Below, piece after piece: positions 27,974 to 37,590 of a stretch of DNA of 41,033 nucleotides. The position numbers were made by a program, and so were the translations under genes. This stretch comes from a virus, in the IMG/VR virus record IMGVR_UViG_3300028392_000121, positions 1 through 41,033 of that record; one strand, given 5' to 3'. The notes under the pieces are model-generated. The model did not search any database and was not told where the DNA came from. It saw nothing but the letters and a program-made list of their open reading frames with translations. Within the stretch, counting starts at the first letter, position 1; every line of letters begins with the position of its first letter.

Positions 27974-28357
27974 TTAAAGTTCAATTAATGTAATACCTAA
28001 TTCATGTTTCATCATTTTACATTTCAGTCTGTATGCGGGTAGTTTCTTTGTGGCTCGGCTCTTCACATCCTCAACAATAACCAATCCGCTTTTATCTTTA
28101 TACTGGAAGTCTGCGTAATATTTGCAAACACTTAACTGAAAGCATACCTGCATTTGCAAATCCGATATTTCGCCAATTGACTGCAAGAATTTCAATTCAC
28201 CATATCGACACGCTTCTTTTTTTGAATCAAATACAATCCCGTCCGAACTAGTCTTTTGGCTACGATACTTGCTCGCCTTTGGCTTATCGGCTTCCGGTTG
28301 ACCACTTACCTTGTACGCAAGTCCCGTTTGCTTAATCCGGTTTAAATCCCACTTCAT
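27974..28357 (-). CDS. DUF1064-like nuclease-fold protein
   Basis: 127 aa. The pattern KYRSQKT..GIVFDSKKEACRYGELKFLQSIGEISDLQMQ followed by YYADFQYKD and VEDVKS matches DUF1064, a phage-associated family with a PD-(D/E)XK-like layout (Asp in ADFQY, Glu and Lys in EDVKS). Likely a small endonuclease or resolvase acting on recombination or replication intermediates. Overlaps the DnaA-like gene by 4 bp. Family recognition is good; activity is inferred. Confidence 0.75.
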   Translation of the reverse strand: MKWDLNRIKQTGLAYKVSGQPEADKPKASKYRSQKTSSDGIVFDSKKEACRYGELKFLQSIGEISDLQMQVCFQLSVCKYYADFQYKDKSGLVIVEDVKSRATKKLPAYRLKCKMMKHELGITLIEL

Positions 28358-28776
28358 CTAATTTTATTTTCAATGCTTTGTACGGTCAGGCGGTAGTCGG
28401 GGTCGGAATCCATGAGGTTTTGAACGGTTATGCAGCTGTGCCGGATACTTGTATGGTCATATCCACCTAAATAATCCCCAACGTTTGTTTGCGACTGTTT
28501 TCTATACTTCATGGCTAGATATGAAAATATCTGCCTTGGTGTAAGCAAAACCCGTGCGCGACCTCTCTGTTTCATCTGTTCGGGCGTTATTTCGAAGTGA
28601 GCGCAAACTAAATCGCAGATAAAGTCATTTTCAGGCTGTTTTAGCTTGTTTGCCTCCGCGACAACCTTATACACCTCCGCTAACCTTTCCGCCCCGTTAC
28701 GCAGGCTCAGTGTGGTAAATCCGGCTGGTTTTGTCGTGGAGCGCGGGATTGCTTGGCTGATTAGTTCGTGTTTCAT
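28354..28776 (-). CDS. Stand-alone DnaA domain IV (origin-binding) protein
   Basis: 140 aa from ATG 28776. An upstream ATG exists at 28803, but 28776 has an unusually strong ribosome binding site (GAAAGGAGG) and an ATGA overlap with the preceding gene. Residues about 55-138 match the DNA-binding C-terminal domain of DnaA: LTPRQIFSYLAMKYRKQS and the signature GYDHTSIRHSCITV (compare GxDHTTVxHA). The DnaA ATPase domain is absent. It may bind DnaA boxes in host or phage DNA, guiding the phage replisome or competing with host DnaA. Confidence 0.85.
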   Translation of the reverse strand: MKHELISQAIPRSTTKPAGFTTLSLRNGAERLAEVYKVVAEANKLKQPENDFICDLVCAHFEITPEQMKQRGRARVLLTPRQIFSYLAMKYRKQSQTNVGDYLGGYDHTSIRHSCITVQNLMDSDPDYRLTVQSIENKIR

Positions 28777-29321
28777 ATCACCCGCCTCCTTTCTACATAA
28801 CATTTACGCTCCGGCACATACACCCGTTCATGCGTCACGGGATTAAACGGATTGCGCAGCGCAATAGTGCTGTTCTGATTAATCAGGGTCTTACCGGCCA
28901 GCATAGGGCCATGCTGCGTGGCTTGTGTCGCCATCGGCTTTTTCTTGAGTATCGGCATCTTTATATTTTTTGGTTTGATCGGTTTTACTTTTTTAACTTT
29001 TACGGGCTTTGGCTTTTTCACCCGGCCTACTTTTATCGGATCCATGTGTTTGCCTGCTGACTTGGTAAACCTGATACGCATCCCGGCGGGCAAGTCCTGA
29101 TTGATACGAAACACCCATGAGCGTAATGTAGCCCTCGGAATACCTATATGTGTGGCAATATCGAGCGATACCATTGTACGCATATTGGCAAGGATATATC
29201 CAGCCCATGAGTATTTCTCGCCAGTCCTGCAGGCATTGTTACAATAGTTCTTTTTGAACATACCTACACGGCACGGGCGTAGTTTTATCGGATTATCGCA
29301 GGTTGTACAGTTGGTTTTCAT
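28773..29321 (-). CDS. Zinc-finger/HTH DNA-binding protein with Lys/Pro linker
   Basis: 182 aa. N-terminal zinc finger from C5, C8, C27 and C31 (CTTCDNP...YCNNACR). Next comes a helix-turn-helix segment about 50-72 (LDIATHIGIPRATLRSWVFRI), then a long Lys/Pro/Val-rich low-complexity linker (about 92-130) and a basic C-terminus. Probably binds DNA, possibly as a regulator of early genes or a replication accessory. No named family. Its end is coupled to the DnaA domain IV gene. Confidence 0.65.
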   Translation of the reverse strand: MKTNCTTCDNPIKLRPCRVGMFKKNYCNNACRTGEKYSWAGYILANMRTMVSLDIATHIGIPRATLRSWVFRINQDLPAGMRIRFTKSAGKHMDPIKVGRVKKPKPVKVKKVKPIKPKNIKMPILKKKPMATQATQHGPMLAGKTLINQNSTIALRNPFNPVTHERVYVPERKCYVERRRVI

Positions 29322-29645: not shown

Positions 29646-30509
29646 TTAAATTTGTGGGGTTAAAATGGTTGATTCGATTGCTTTGAATATTTCGTAGGCT
29701 ATATGTGGATCAATGGCATTTCCTAATGCGGCAATTCTGTCCACCCTATTGGGTATCCCATCATCATCTCCGCAAATTGTGGGTTCAACGGTCCAGGATA
29801 ACCAGTGAGCTTTCCTTGCCTCGATAATGCCTCTACGCATTTCCCTGATTGCTTCTCTTCGTTGTAACTCCAACTCCTGGGATCCGATTTGTTTAATGTG
29901 GGTAGTGTCGCTGATAAGTACCTTACTAGCGTCATTGAGTGCATCGAACCCTCTTTTGTTTGGCTGCTCTTCATAACCGCTGTCGCCCCGTTCGCATCCA
30001 TTTTTGTAAGCGTCGGCAAGCATGGCGATAAACCAAACTCGGTATCTAATTGAATTAGCTTCTTTGCCGCAAGCTGGAAGTATAACCGATTGGACTTCGT
30101 ACCCTTCACTTTCCAAGTCAGCGCATACCATTTCGAAGACCATTCCATCGTTCCAATTAACGATTCCATAAACATTTTCACCCAAGATGATTTTAGGTTT
30201 AACCTCTTTAATAACTCTATAGTTTTCCGGCCAGAGGTGTCGAGGGTCTGCGCTGCCCATTCTCTTTCCTGCTGTGCTAAAAGGTTGGCATGGGAATCCT
30301 CCGGTAATAATGTCGATTTTATCTCTGTAAATAAGTCCATCAAATTCTTTTATGTCTTTGTATTGTATGCAGTTTGGAAAATGTTTTTTGGTTACTTTAT
30401 TGCAGAAATCATCAATTTCAACGCTTGCCACATTCTCCCATCCCATCCAATGTGCGGCTAGTTGAAATCCGCCAATTCCGTTAAAAAGTGACAGGTGCTT
30501 AAGTTTCAT
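29646..30509 (-). CDS. dcm: C5 cytosine-specific DNA methyltransferase
   Basis: 287 aa, short for the family because the target-recognition region is small. All key motifs are present: I FNGIGGF (9-15), IV GGFPCQPFS with catalytic Cys74, VI ENV (111-113), a motif VIII variant SIRYRVWF (153-160), and X GNAIDP (263-268). It transfers a methyl group from S-adenosylmethionine to cytosine C5, probably to protect phage DNA from host restriction. No cognate restriction enzyme lies beside it, so it is an orphan. Most of the gene (29723-30340) also carries a second long open frame, described separately. Confidence 0.9.
   Translation of the reverse strand: MKLKHLSLFNGIGGFQLAAHWMGWENVASVEIDDFCNKVTKKHFPNCIQYKDIKEFDGLIYRDKIDIITGGFPCQPFSTAGKRMGSADPRHLWPENYRVIKEVKPKIILGENVYGIVNWNDGMVFEMVCADLESEGYEVQSVILPACGKEANSIRYRVWFIAMLADAYKNGCERGDSGYEEQPNKRGFDALNDASKVLISDTTHIKQIGSQELELQRREAIREMRRGIIEARKAHWLSWTVEPTICGDDDGIPNRVDRIAALGNAIDPHIAYEIFKAIESTILTPQI
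29723..30340 (-). CDS. Nested overlapping gene inside dcm (dual-coding candidate)
   Basis: 205 codons from ATG 30340 to TAG at 29723, wholly within dcm in a different frame of the same strand. The translation looks like a real soluble protein: MDLFTEI start, DTSGRK near 37, WYALTWKVKGTKSNRLYFQL near 71-90, MDANG...MKSSQTKEGSMHS near 114-134, and NPQFAEMMMGYPIGWTELPH at the end. From memory, these segments resemble a recurring phage-associated family (DTSGR..., TWK.KGTKxNRxxFQL, MMGYPxGWTEL). I could not verify this. The frame's stop overlaps the dcm GNAIDP motif. Confidence 0.5.
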   Translation of the reverse strand: MDLFTEIKSTLLPEDSHANLLAQQEREWAAQTLDTSGRKTIELLKRLNLKSSWVKMFMESLIGTMEWSSKWYALTWKVKGTKSNRLYFQLAAKKLIQLDTEFGLSPCLPTLTKMDANGATAVMKSSQTKEGSMHSMTLVRYLSATLPTLNKSDPRSWSYNEEKQSGKCVEALSRQGKLTGYPGPLNPQFAEMMMGYPIGWTELPH

Positions 30510-34353: not shown

Positions 34354-34992
34354 TTATCCCCATTGTTCAGCCATTGCGTCTGCAATTCCAGGAAATGTTT
34401 TACTTCTTATTTTTTCCCTTTCAGGTCCCGGGGCGCAATAATGAACCAATGCCCGTTCCTTATATGGTAGTTTCATCATTTCGGCATACACGTTATTCGT
34501 TTCCTGTAGATATGGCAAACGGTAATTCCAAAGGCACGTCCTTTTAGTTTGCATGTGCCCATGTTGGTAAGGTTGTATTGTCTGGCTCCATTTGCCAACT
34601 CCTTGCACAAATCTACCATGCCTATTTACAAATCCATCCCTAGCATATTTGTGCTGCACCGGATTTTCTATGCTTTTCATCCATATAGTTGAGTTTGCGA
34701 AAACATTAAAAAAATCAATCGCTAATTCTAATTCATCCCATCTATCATTGTTAATTCTCTTTTCTTCTTTTACAAGCCACCTAACACCGCTATTAGCCAT
34801 TATCTTACAAACGGGATGCGCCACCATTAAGTGAAAGCTGTTATTCATTACTTTGCGCACATCATCTTGTATGTGCCATTCAGGATGTCCTCCGCTACAC
34901 GGTTGCAGATCACAACTAAATGCCTCATGGCCTTTTGCTCTAAAGGATTTGCATATTTCCTGGCTTTCTTCACATGCAACAAGAACTCTCAT
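34354..34992 (-). CDS. Dcm-like phage methyltransferase-fold protein
   Basis: 212 aa. It begins MRVLVACEESQEICKSFRAKGHEAFSCDL, the S-adenosylmethionine-site pattern of a phage family usually labelled DNA cytosine methyltransferase. It continues with AHPVC (58-62), where classical enzymes have PPC, then SIENP (107-111) in place of ENV, and ends FPGIADAMAEQWG, a family-typical tail. Cys62 may be the catalytic nucleophile. No separate target-recognition domain is visible. It may modify phage DNA or act on nucleotides; which is uncertain. Confidence 0.7.
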   Translation of the reverse strand: MRVLVACEESQEICKSFRAKGHEAFSCDLQPCSGGHPEWHIQDDVRKVMNNSFHLMVAHPVCKIMANSGVRWLVKEEKRINNDRWDELELAIDFFNVFANSTIWMKSIENPVQHKYARDGFVNRHGRFVQGVGKWSQTIQPYQHGHMQTKRTCLWNYRLPYLQETNNVYAEMMKLPYKERALVHYCAPGPEREKIRSKTFPGIADAMAEQWG

Positions 34993-35019: not shown

Positions 35020-35253
35020 TTATTTCCCCAATGTTCTCTTATAAAAAATGTCCCGACCTTCACCATCCAGCAATGCCGCGTACTGCTTCATATCTTCCAT
35101 TCTAGCGGCGTTTTCTCTGTCCTTGTAGATATTCCACCATGCGGATAGATACCACGGATTTTGAACATTAGCCAGCGTGTATTGAAACTCCCGGCTATCT
35201 GGTACATACTGCCTTTTTACGGCGCAATTTTGTGGTGAGGCGAAAAGTGTCAT
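35020..35253 (-). CDS. Hypothetical small protein coupled to the helicase-methylase
   Basis: 77 aa, basic and aromatic (WYLSAWWNIYKDREN). Not recognised. Its ATG overlaps the stop of the helicase-methylase gene (35250-35253), so the two are probably co-translated and may work together. Confidence 0.6.
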   Translation of the reverse strand: MTLFASPQNCAVKRQYVPDSREFQYTLANVQNPWYLSAWWNIYKDRENAARMEDMKQYAALLDGEGRDIFYKRTLGK

Positions 35254-37451
35254 GCTGCGAATAATTGAGCTTGTTCTTTTGATTTTTCGGCGTTCTTGAT
35301 ATTCCTTTCAGCAATGTTGAAATAGCTTGTTTTCAGCTCAAATCCTATACCCTTACGTCCCATCTGGATAGCTTTAAATACTTCGCTGCCAATACCCATA
35401 AATGGCGTTAAAACGGTATCGCCTTCATTGCTCCATAGGTGTATAGCCCTTTCTATTGTTTGAAGCTGCAAAGGGCAGATATGCTTTTCGTCTTTCTCTG
35501 CTCTGGCTTCGGTGCGGTTCAGTGTTTCCCCATAATCAATATCCATCCATACGGGGCTGGCGTATTTCTGCCATAGGTCAACCGGAATATCATTTTTGCT
35601 TACCGGGTGCTTATGCTCTCCCGGTTTGCGGAATACTAACAAGTAATCAGGTATGCCAACCCGAGACATTGCGGCATCTTTCTTTACTTGCTTATGAAGT
35701 AATCCCAATGCCTTTGTACGCTGCATTTCTGTAACAGGGTCTTTCCATATTGTTACCCGGCTGTGATAGATAAACCCTGCATCCTGAAACACTTGCAGTA
35801 TCATACCGGAAAAATCACGCAGCCCTATGTATCCTTCTTTGCCTTTCTGTATTGGCAAGTCCATACAGTGAACAGCCACATTGCGGCCTGACCATAAAAC
35901 CCGAAACAGATCCGCCACAAGGAATTTAAAGGCGGTAAAAAATTCGTTGTAATCCTTGCTGTTACCCATATCCTCCAATTCGTCAGAATAGGTGTATAGT
36001 TCCGCAAATGGTGGGCTGAAAATGCTAAACCCTATACTTTCATCAGGAATAGATTTTATTCCTTTAACACAGTCACCCAGGCGAATATCTGCCATTTCTG
36101 ATTTGTAGCTACGTTCCATCCTTTTAGTTTTTTGTTTGTGCTTAAATGAACTGTTCATGCTTACCTGCATAGCCCTTTGCATGTCTTCAAATTGGGCCTG
36201 TTTGCGCTTTATAGACTGGATAATATTTTGCATGGTGTCGGTAGTAATCAACCACACATTAACAGCGTTCTTTTGACCAAAACGCCATTCCCTACGAATA
36301 GACTGGTAAAGGCTCTCAAAGCTGAAATCCGGGCTGGCAAATATCATGTTGTGGCAGTTCTGAAAGTTCATCCCAAACCCGCCAATCTTTGCTTTTGTGA
36401 TAAGAACGCGAAACTGATTGTTTGCGAAGCCTAACAATTTATCACGCTTCCATGTTGGGCTGTCAGAGCCTTGCACCTCTATGGCTTCCGGTATCAACTT
36501 GCGCAGCGTTTCCCCTTCCTCATTTTGCTTTACCCAGATAATAAAACTTTCATCCGGTCGGGTGTTTACGATCGCTGCAACTTCATCAAGACGAACAATT
36601 TTTGTAAGGCGCAATTCTGCATTGTGGGTTGTGGCGGATATGGCAGTATCATTAAACAAAGTGCCATTATCTTTCTTTTCGGTAACAATCATTTTTTCGA
36701 TGTACTCAAGCGGTGGCAGATTATACCCTTCATCAGAAAAACCAATGTCAGACGGTTTTGAAAGCATAATAGCCCAACTGCTCACGAAGTCCCAAAATAG
36801 CTTTTCACAGTGGCCCTTCAATCTCCATTTAGCAGTTTCGCCGCCGTCATGCACGAAATACATTGCAAGCATTTCATTGTAGTTCATGGCGTTTAAAAAC
36901 TCCGCATGGTTGCCAAGCTCCATAGGGTCGTTAGGGCTTGGGGTAGCGGTACAGCATAGTTTGTAAGGGGTGTTGCCGAAATTATCAATAAGCAAATTGC
37001 GATATGCGCCCTCAAAGTTTTTTATAATGCTGGATTCATCCAACACAATGCCGACAAAATCAGACGCAGATATATTCTCCAACTGCTCATAGTTGGTAAT
37101 GTAAACTGCTGCGGGCAATTCATCCATTGAGTAAAACCCATCATGGTACTCTATTGGCTCAATACCAATTTTTATACCCTCTTGAATTGTCTGCGATACA
37201 ACCGCCAACGGAGCAAGTATGATAACTGCCTTATTTGTGAAGTTCACGACCTCATGCGCCCATGTTAGTTGCTGTCGGCTCTTTCCCAACCCGCAATCCT
37301 CAAACATCGCAAATCTGCCTTTCTTTATGGCTAATTTGACGCAGTACTCTTGGAATGGGTATAGGTGCGCCCATCTGCCGGGGTGGTCAAATCCGCTATC
37401 TATGTGCGTCTTTATTTTGCTCTCAAGGAATTGATCGTATGTGGTTTCCAT
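35250..37451 (-). CDS. SNF2-type helicase fused to DNA methylase
   Basis: 733 aa from ATG 37451 (A-rich context); ATG 37475 adds 8 residues. N-terminal half is an SF2/SNF2-type ATPase: Walker A FEDCGLGKS (about 50-58), DESS box (about 138), TATPSPND (about 168-175), and a C-terminal helicase lobe with GGFGMNFQ and QSIRREWRFGQ (about 370-400). C-terminal half is an N4/N6 amino-methylase: SPPFAELYTYSDELEDMG as motif IV (about 490) and TPFMGIGSEVFKAIQMGRKGIGFEL as motif I (about 682-706), a circularly permuted (beta-class) order. No nuclease domain is present, so it is not a complete restriction system. It probably modifies adenine or cytosine while tracking on DNA. Confidence 0.85.
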   Translation of the reverse strand: METTYDQFLESKIKTHIDSGFDHPGRWAHLYPFQEYCVKLAIKKGRFAMFEDCGLGKSRQQLTWAHEVVNFTNKAVIILAPLAVVSQTIQEGIKIGIEPIEYHDGFYSMDELPAAVYITNYEQLENISASDFVGIVLDESSIIKNFEGAYRNLLIDNFGNTPYKLCCTATPSPNDPMELGNHAEFLNAMNYNEMLAMYFVHDGGETAKWRLKGHCEKLFWDFVSSWAIMLSKPSDIGFSDEGYNLPPLEYIEKMIVTEKKDNGTLFNDTAISATTHNAELRLTKIVRLDEVAAIVNTRPDESFIIWVKQNEEGETLRKLIPEAIEVQGSDSPTWKRDKLLGFANNQFRVLITKAKIGGFGMNFQNCHNMIFASPDFSFESLYQSIRREWRFGQKNAVNVWLITTDTMQNIIQSIKRKQAQFEDMQRAMQVSMNSSFKHKQKTKRMERSYKSEMADIRLGDCVKGIKSIPDESIGFSIFSPPFAELYTYSDELEDMGNSKDYNEFFTAFKFLVADLFRVLWSGRNVAVHCMDLPIQKGKEGYIGLRDFSGMILQVFQDAGFIYHSRVTIWKDPVTEMQRTKALGLLHKQVKKDAAMSRVGIPDYLLVFRKPGEHKHPVSKNDIPVDLWQKYASPVWMDIDYGETLNRTEARAEKDEKHICPLQLQTIERAIHLWSNEGDTVLTPFMGIGSEVFKAIQMGRKGIGFELKTSYFNIAERNIKNAEKSKEQAQLFAA

Positions 37452-37590
37452 CTTTCTAATTTTTACGTCTCTCATGCACCAAATCCCACGCCTTGTGAGC
37501 TAACGGGTTATTTGGATGCGGGTGGGGTGGGGTTACTTGTGGATTATTACAAAGTCGTCCACGTTTTTAAGTTCAGTTTCAAATATGCCA

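Follow-up and report, generated by a model that had tools for sequence, protein, structure and literature searches.

The window analysed here, a 41,033-nucleotide stretch of viral DNA (IMG/VR record IMGVR_UViG_3300028392_000121), has terminase, portal and tape-measure genes on its plus strand, and its minus strand encodes a replication module. Also on the minus strand lies dcm, a C5-cytosine DNA methyltransferase (C5-MTase) gene whose product we call alpha and, inside it, a second open frame that we call beta (Table 1). The initial annotation had noticed this frame as a possible second gene, with its own ATG and 205 codons, lying on the same strand as dcm and covering it from motif IV onwards; the frame indeed runs in +1 from 30340 to 29723, from motif IV to just before motif X. 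Elsewhere in the window, the replication module includes a small HNH endonuclease (PF01844; 33120–33458, minus), and a 149-aa minus-strand protein with a DnaA C-terminal DNA-binding domain (28354–28803; PF08299, E = 4.7e-17), too short to fit the DnaA ATPase part, adjoins a Holliday junction resolvase gene. Two other minus-strand genes, to judge from their matches, are possibly further methylation-related genes of the same phage: a 741-aa protein (35250–37475) that matches helicases and, in its C-terminal part, methyltransferase PHROGs, and a 212-aa protein matching phrog_757, a DNA methyltransferase (34354–34992).

Table 1. Features of the dcm locus, in window coordinates
Feature	Position	Strand	Basis or remark
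alpha (dcm): C5-cytosine DNA methyltransferase, putative large (catalytic) subunit, 287 aa, motifs I–VIII and X	29646–30509	-	Pfam, TIGR00675, AlphaFold2
beta: nested +1-frame gene, 205 aa, putative specificity subunit, two recognition-type cassettes and motif IX	29723–30340	-	phrog_1008, constraint, openness, fusions
beta start codon ATG	30338–30340	-	TTG one codon upstream at 30341–30343
beta stop codon TAG	29723–29725	-	205 codons from ATG
beta residues 72–90, conserved predicted beta-hairpin YALTWKVKGTKSNRLYFQL	30071–30127	-	AlphaFold2 strands 72–80, 86–95; consensus
beta cassette 1, LPTLTKMDANGATAVMKSSQTKEGSMHSMTLVRYLSAT	29906–30019	-	most frequent cassette type
beta cassette 2, LPTLNKSDPRSWSYNEEKQSGKCVEALSRQGKLTGYPGP	29789–29905	-	a related cassette stands alone in the beta of a distant phage (L474)
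motif IX in beta frame, LNPQFAEMMMGYPIGWTEL	29732–29788	-	helix 187–194; nearly invariant; in frame before X in L388 clade
alpha motif IV, catalytic PCQ	30276–30302	-	alignment invariants
alpha motif VI, GENV	30171–30182	-	alignment invariants
alpha motif VIII, SIRYRVWFIA (relatives: RRDRVWF)	30024–30053	-	alignment invariants
alpha linker, read through DNA of beta cassettes and motif IX	29733–30014	-	poorly conserved, largely low AlphaFold2 confidence
alpha motif X, AALGNAIDPHIAYEIFKAI	29676–29732	-	AlphaFold2 helix 268–282; invariant G263 N264 A265

Pfam matches alpha to PF00145 (E = 2.8e-41) over residues 4–184 only, and TIGR00675 is matched as well; beta matches phrog_1008, 'DNA methyltransferase' (E = 1.5e-16), and has no family model in Pfam or NCBIfam. 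The open +1 run within dcm, 208 codons, exceeds the longest in all 20,000 codon permutations (mean 63) and all 20,000 synonymous resamplings (mean 53) of the gene, and the +2 frame is unremarkable. Consensus across relatives marks LTWKxKGTKYNRYYCQL, MKSSQVKEGSMHSMTL and LNPRFVAEMMGFPPNWTELPF as conserved in beta, and the motif-like segments that had first drawn attention to the frame are segments of this conserved kind.

By tblastn, the nested protein is found in 30 phage records at 27–34% identity, with coverage of at least 80% in each, and an IMG/VR scan with it returned 80 loci at 32–51% identity, nearly all nested in +1 in a dcm homologue. Because sampling by the nested protein favours intact nested frames, a second sample was chosen by dcm (alpha) alone, and the nested frame was present in 80 of 80 such loci. 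Among 136 non-redundant dcm relatives (<75% identical), the +1 frame has no stop over the tested codons in 131, where permutation of synonymous codons predicts 0.9; stops in this frame number 0.04 per gene, versus 5.2 under the alpha-preserving permutation, and the +2 frame is at the null level. Upstream of the nested ATG, over codons 0–45, the +1 frame of these genes holds 2.6 stops each. A broader, more distant set, built with cyanophage, mycobacteriophage, archaeal and other query sequences, is open in +1 in 61 of 73 cases (2.0 expected), and ordinary C5-MTases in the same host genomes have 22–36 stops in that frame. Frameshifted copies (L057–059, L083, L145 and mycobacteriophage Llama) were left out as broken or rearranged. 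L057, L058, L059 and L234, from several metagenomes, share a frame shift that joins the nested frame to motif X and leaves motif IX in the third frame; from their sequences they are probably inactivated or rearranged copies. In Llama (L279, gp74–gp75) the dcm frame is split over two coding sequences, both annotated as DNA methylase, the second half carrying on in the +1 frame.

Selection on the overlap can be read in both directions. With the dcm protein and codon usage held fixed, conservation in the beta frame is above the null level in most columns between roughly dcm codons 40–52 and codon 257; outside the nested ORF (codons 15–38 and 266–285) such excess occurs in just 0–8% of columns. 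Over codons 177–257, which span the region of the target-recognizing domain (TRD) and motif IX, beta is conserved more than alpha, for example 0.73 versus 0.59 at motif IX. In the reverse test, with beta fixed, the alpha frame over the TRD–IX region is free of stops in all 136 genes, where 4.7 would be expected in each, and both frames are under selection to stay open; the alpha linker is poorly conserved, yet it has to remain open for motif X to be reached. The initial annotation had named stops in the nested frame of relatives and a want of excess constraint as signs against a gene. The frame is instead open in nearly all relatives, including every locus picked by alpha, and the excess constraint is strong and confined to the nested ORF.

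The start of beta is conserved as well. In most relatives the nested ATG lies at dcm nucleotide 142, where it is formed by a Tyr codon and the following G, and the Tyr codon at this site is TAT in 62 genes versus TAC in 4, against a background of 616:664 (P = 1e-15). These betas begin at alpha Tyr-Glu-Asp, nine codons before that of the window, where alpha reads Tyr-Lys at the usual site and the ATG lies instead 27 nt downstream, at dcm nucleotide 169; genes without an ATG at nucleotide 142 usually have another nearby. In Paenibacillus phage Tadhana (L003) the nested ATG follows a clear, strong Shine-Dalgarno sequence (GGGAGGTG), of which phage Lily has a weaker form; none is obvious before the window's own nested ATG. 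Because the ATG is conserved, with marked codon choice, and is preceded by Shine-Dalgarno sequences in Tadhana and Lily, beta is likely made by internal initiation. A frame that is open for longer than chance allows, extra constraint that stays within the ORF and a conserved start are the marks of a nested gene, and comparative analysis shows that beta is a conserved protein-coding gene, one that is kept, hidden, in more than 100 diverse phage and prophage genes, mostly without annotation.

What such a gene might contribute is suggested by what alpha has and what it lacks. In the description of C5-MTase motifs given in PMC5944983, motifs I–III and X serve SAM, motifs IV–VIII serve catalysis and the TRD lies between VIII and IX. 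Motifs I, IV (PCQ), VI (ENV), VIII and X are all present in alpha, and the PCQ, ENV and GNA columns are invariant in the alignment. In a C5-MTase of one chain, VIII and X are expected to flank the TRD and motif IX, and in alpha they do not: its region between VIII and X is mostly of low confidence and unconserved, and motif IX sits in the +1 frame. The AlphaFold2 model of alpha agrees, with pLDDT mostly >90 over residues 1–70, confidence over most of the catalytic fold and motif X as a helix (268–282; mean pLDDT 92 for residues 271–280). Its pLDDT falls below 50 at 169–181, 185–209, 238–249 and 252–263, where the TRD and motif IX would be expected; alpha is thus modelled without a small domain.

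Direct comparison of beta with known structures and enzymes gave less. In an HH comparison, its end LNPQFAEMMMGYPIGWTEL aligned correctly, though not significantly (P = 0.18), with motif IX of ordinary C5-MTases (ITPREAARLQGFPDWF), and nothing aligned beyond motif IX. Modelled alone by AlphaFold2, beta reaches a mean pLDDT of 56, its hairpin strands (72–80 and 86–95) being among the most confident parts; Foldseek of this model against the PDB gave no match at E ≤ 0.001, and a profile search of beta in the PDB found nothing relevant. Because beta probably needs alpha to fold, we counted the poor model of beta alone neither way. As the direct motif IX match is not significant, the link between alpha and beta rests on fusions and rearranged relatives.

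These relatives carry the same parts in other orders. At least 15 records from Vibrio and Alteromonas megaplasmids encode a single ORF with motifs I–VIII and X followed in frame by a beta-like TRD–IX end, and the beta profile matches the fused C-terminus (P = 7.8e-10) and does not match the fused N-terminus. In L095, alpha stops after motif VIII and its frame is then full of stops, while the nested frame is open as TRD–IX–X. In a conserved clade comprising L388 and L394–L420, the alpha frame encodes motif IX immediately ahead of X, which is the canonical order, and the nested frame remains open across the TRD and stops short of IX; we considered L388 as an ordinary unsplit enzyme and rejected this, as its nested frame holds the TRD. 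The homologues outside dcm shadow frames that the initial annotation had asked after thus exist, in the single-chain C-terminal ends and in L095. The same modules are thus shared out between the frames in at least four arrangements, and these sequences show that beta holds the TRD position and motif IX and belongs with alpha. The three rearrangements (megaplasmid fusions, L095 and the L388 clade) are the evidence for this pairing and support the reading of the pair as a split methyltransferase. The TRD–IX part is then probably dcm's own specificity domain moved to another frame and not a foreign overprinted gene. The first description of beta as overprinted holds for two stretches, which look to be the only ones of that kind: the beta N-terminal part over IV–VIII and the alpha linker over TRD–IX. 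Single-chain enzymes with the order I–VIII, X, TRD, IX include L097, L101 and L309–L313, all from Vibrio and Alteromonas megaplasmids; this order is absent from the natural permuted types described in passages of PMC5944983.

Other accounts of the nested frame fit these observations less well. It might be a non-coding shadow of dcm, open through composition and dcm conservation; motifs IV–VIII of dcm do fix part of the beta sequence, and neither Pfam nor NCBIfam has a family for the nested protein. Permutations that preserve alpha nevertheless put 5.2 stops per gene into a frame that is nearly free of them, the excess conservation ends where the nested ORF ends and homologues exist without an overlapping alpha frame, in L095 and the megaplasmid fusions. 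On these grounds we reject a chance shadow and give it almost no credence, and the worry voiced at the outset, that the family might consist of mis-annotated dcm shadow frames, is answered by the same openness, constraint and fused homologues. We consider it very improbable that beta is a separate protein, such as a regulator, inhibitor or anti-restriction factor, that merely shares the DNA of dcm: nested phage genes can have unrelated functions, but here the TRD–IX part is fused in frame to alpha-type proteins and sits with motif X in L095, motif IX lies within alpha in the L388 clade and alpha is modelled lacking its small domain. Of the two roles guessed for beta initially, regulating or completing the enzyme, it is completion that the TRD–IX fusions and rearranged relatives favour. 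Production of beta by ribosomal frameshifting, as a fused alpha-N/beta-C product, would suit a frame that is +1 throughout and a window with no obvious Shine-Dalgarno sequence; we find it highly unlikely in view of the conserved ATG with its strong codon choice, the Shine-Dalgarno sequences of the Paenibacillus phages and the +1 stops that precede the ATG.

The variable part of beta extends from the hairpin to motif IX and is made up of consecutive units, mostly of 25–50 and typically of some 35–45 residues, each beginning LPTPxxxD. We counted 297 such cassettes in 125 betas, 1 to 5 in each, belonging to 42 recurrent types; the window beta has two, and its cassette 1 is of the commonest type, which a second, almost identical count found in 33 different arrays. 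For the eight largest types, identity in the beta frame is 0.34–0.81 versus 0.23–0.47 in the alpha frame over the same DNA, and beta is higher in eight of eight. Gene pairs that share 94–99% identity in the 155 catalytic residues differ in their cassettes, which are exchangeable and shuffled among phages. No type is repeated within an array, whereas 2,000 shuffled trials averaged 8.4 repeats and always had some; alternatively, the missing repeats could come from recombination that deletes tandem repeats. Each cassette is probably an independent TRD and, because the window beta has two, the window enzyme probably methylates two sites. That beta is instead a specificity subunit for a single target, its cassettes being structural repeats and not separate TRDs, is a live possibility that we lean against: 16 of the 125 betas have one cassette, but the size, position, swapping and non-repetition of the cassettes match tandem TRDs.

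Overall, alpha and beta are best read, from their motifs and relatives, as a split C5-MTase of the M.EcoHK31I kind. Alpha would be the large domain, responsible for SAM binding and catalysis (motifs I–VIII plus X), and beta, translated from its own ATG inside alpha and read in +1, would be the small domain, providing target recognition and motif IX. The two would form an active heterodimeric enzyme acting on phage DNA, the simplest purpose of the methylation being protection from host restriction, and the variable region of beta would be a row of exchangeable cassettes with one target each. We hold this reading as a whole, from catalytic and specificity subunits to cassette array and protective methylation, with high confidence. 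Opinion is evenly balanced on a further step, that there is a broad class of phage and prophage C5-MTases whose specificity lies in a hidden, overlapping cassette gene and whose methylated sites change by cassette swaps that leave the catalytic subunit untouched. If so, swapped cassette DNA has to read in two frames, and one short recombination could reset the target set of a multispecific enzyme. Many phage, prophage and plasmid genes annotated as 'DNA cytosine methyltransferase' appear to encode just half of an enzyme, while the half that sets the target lies concealed in another frame, in most cases unannotated; cloning alpha by itself should then yield an inactive enzyme, and specificity could not be predicted from the annotated protein. 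These loci also make up an unusually large collection of conserved nested genes that lends itself to testing, and their two products probably combine into a single enzyme.

The closest published plan is that of M.EcoHK31I (YGGCCR), a two-polypeptide C5-MTase with motifs I–VIII and X in the large subunit and IX in the small one (PMC3404938). Alpha and beta divide the motifs in the same way. Lee, Kam and Shaw are said to have described in 1995 an EcoHK31I small-subunit gene inside the large one in another frame, a likeness to the window, where the smaller polypeptide is also encoded inside the larger gene. The published prediction for M.EcoHK31I puts the TRD in the large subunit, whereas here the conserved TRD block and the cassettes are in the beta frame. 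Because the nested TRD, the cassette array and the spread through phages of many hosts differ, we regard alpha/beta as a variant of the EcoHK31I plan, likened to it by motif layout and not as a confirmed homologue; the arrangement also occurs on some plasmids, including an archaeal one. In M.AquI (CYCGRG) the split falls after motif VIII, ahead of the C-terminal motifs (PMC3404938). Its small subunit holds IX and X, unlike the window, where X is in alpha; L095, with IX and X together in the nested frame, resembles it.

The multispecific enzymes of Bacillus phages carry tandem TRDs between motifs VIII and IX. The beta array, a row of swapped and never-repeated units that are putative TRDs, resembles theirs, but the Bacillus enzymes, those of SPR, phi3T, rho11 and H2 (Wilke 1988 and Trautner 1996, as cited in passages of PMC8936443 and PMC12707154), are single-chain, and the window array lies in a separate, overlapping reading frame. 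Entries of the same family or position exist, namely phrog_1008 and the internal genes of Paenibacillus larvae phages (Lily gp63, 'g62 internal gene', and Tadhana gp55); they are named by similarity or position, with no split enzyme or cassette array stated there, and a search of mostly freely available literature found no text naming a nested partner of phage dcm. What appears to be new here is beta as an array of one to five exchangeable, never-repeated cassettes, written in a frame that overlaps the gene for its catalytic partner.
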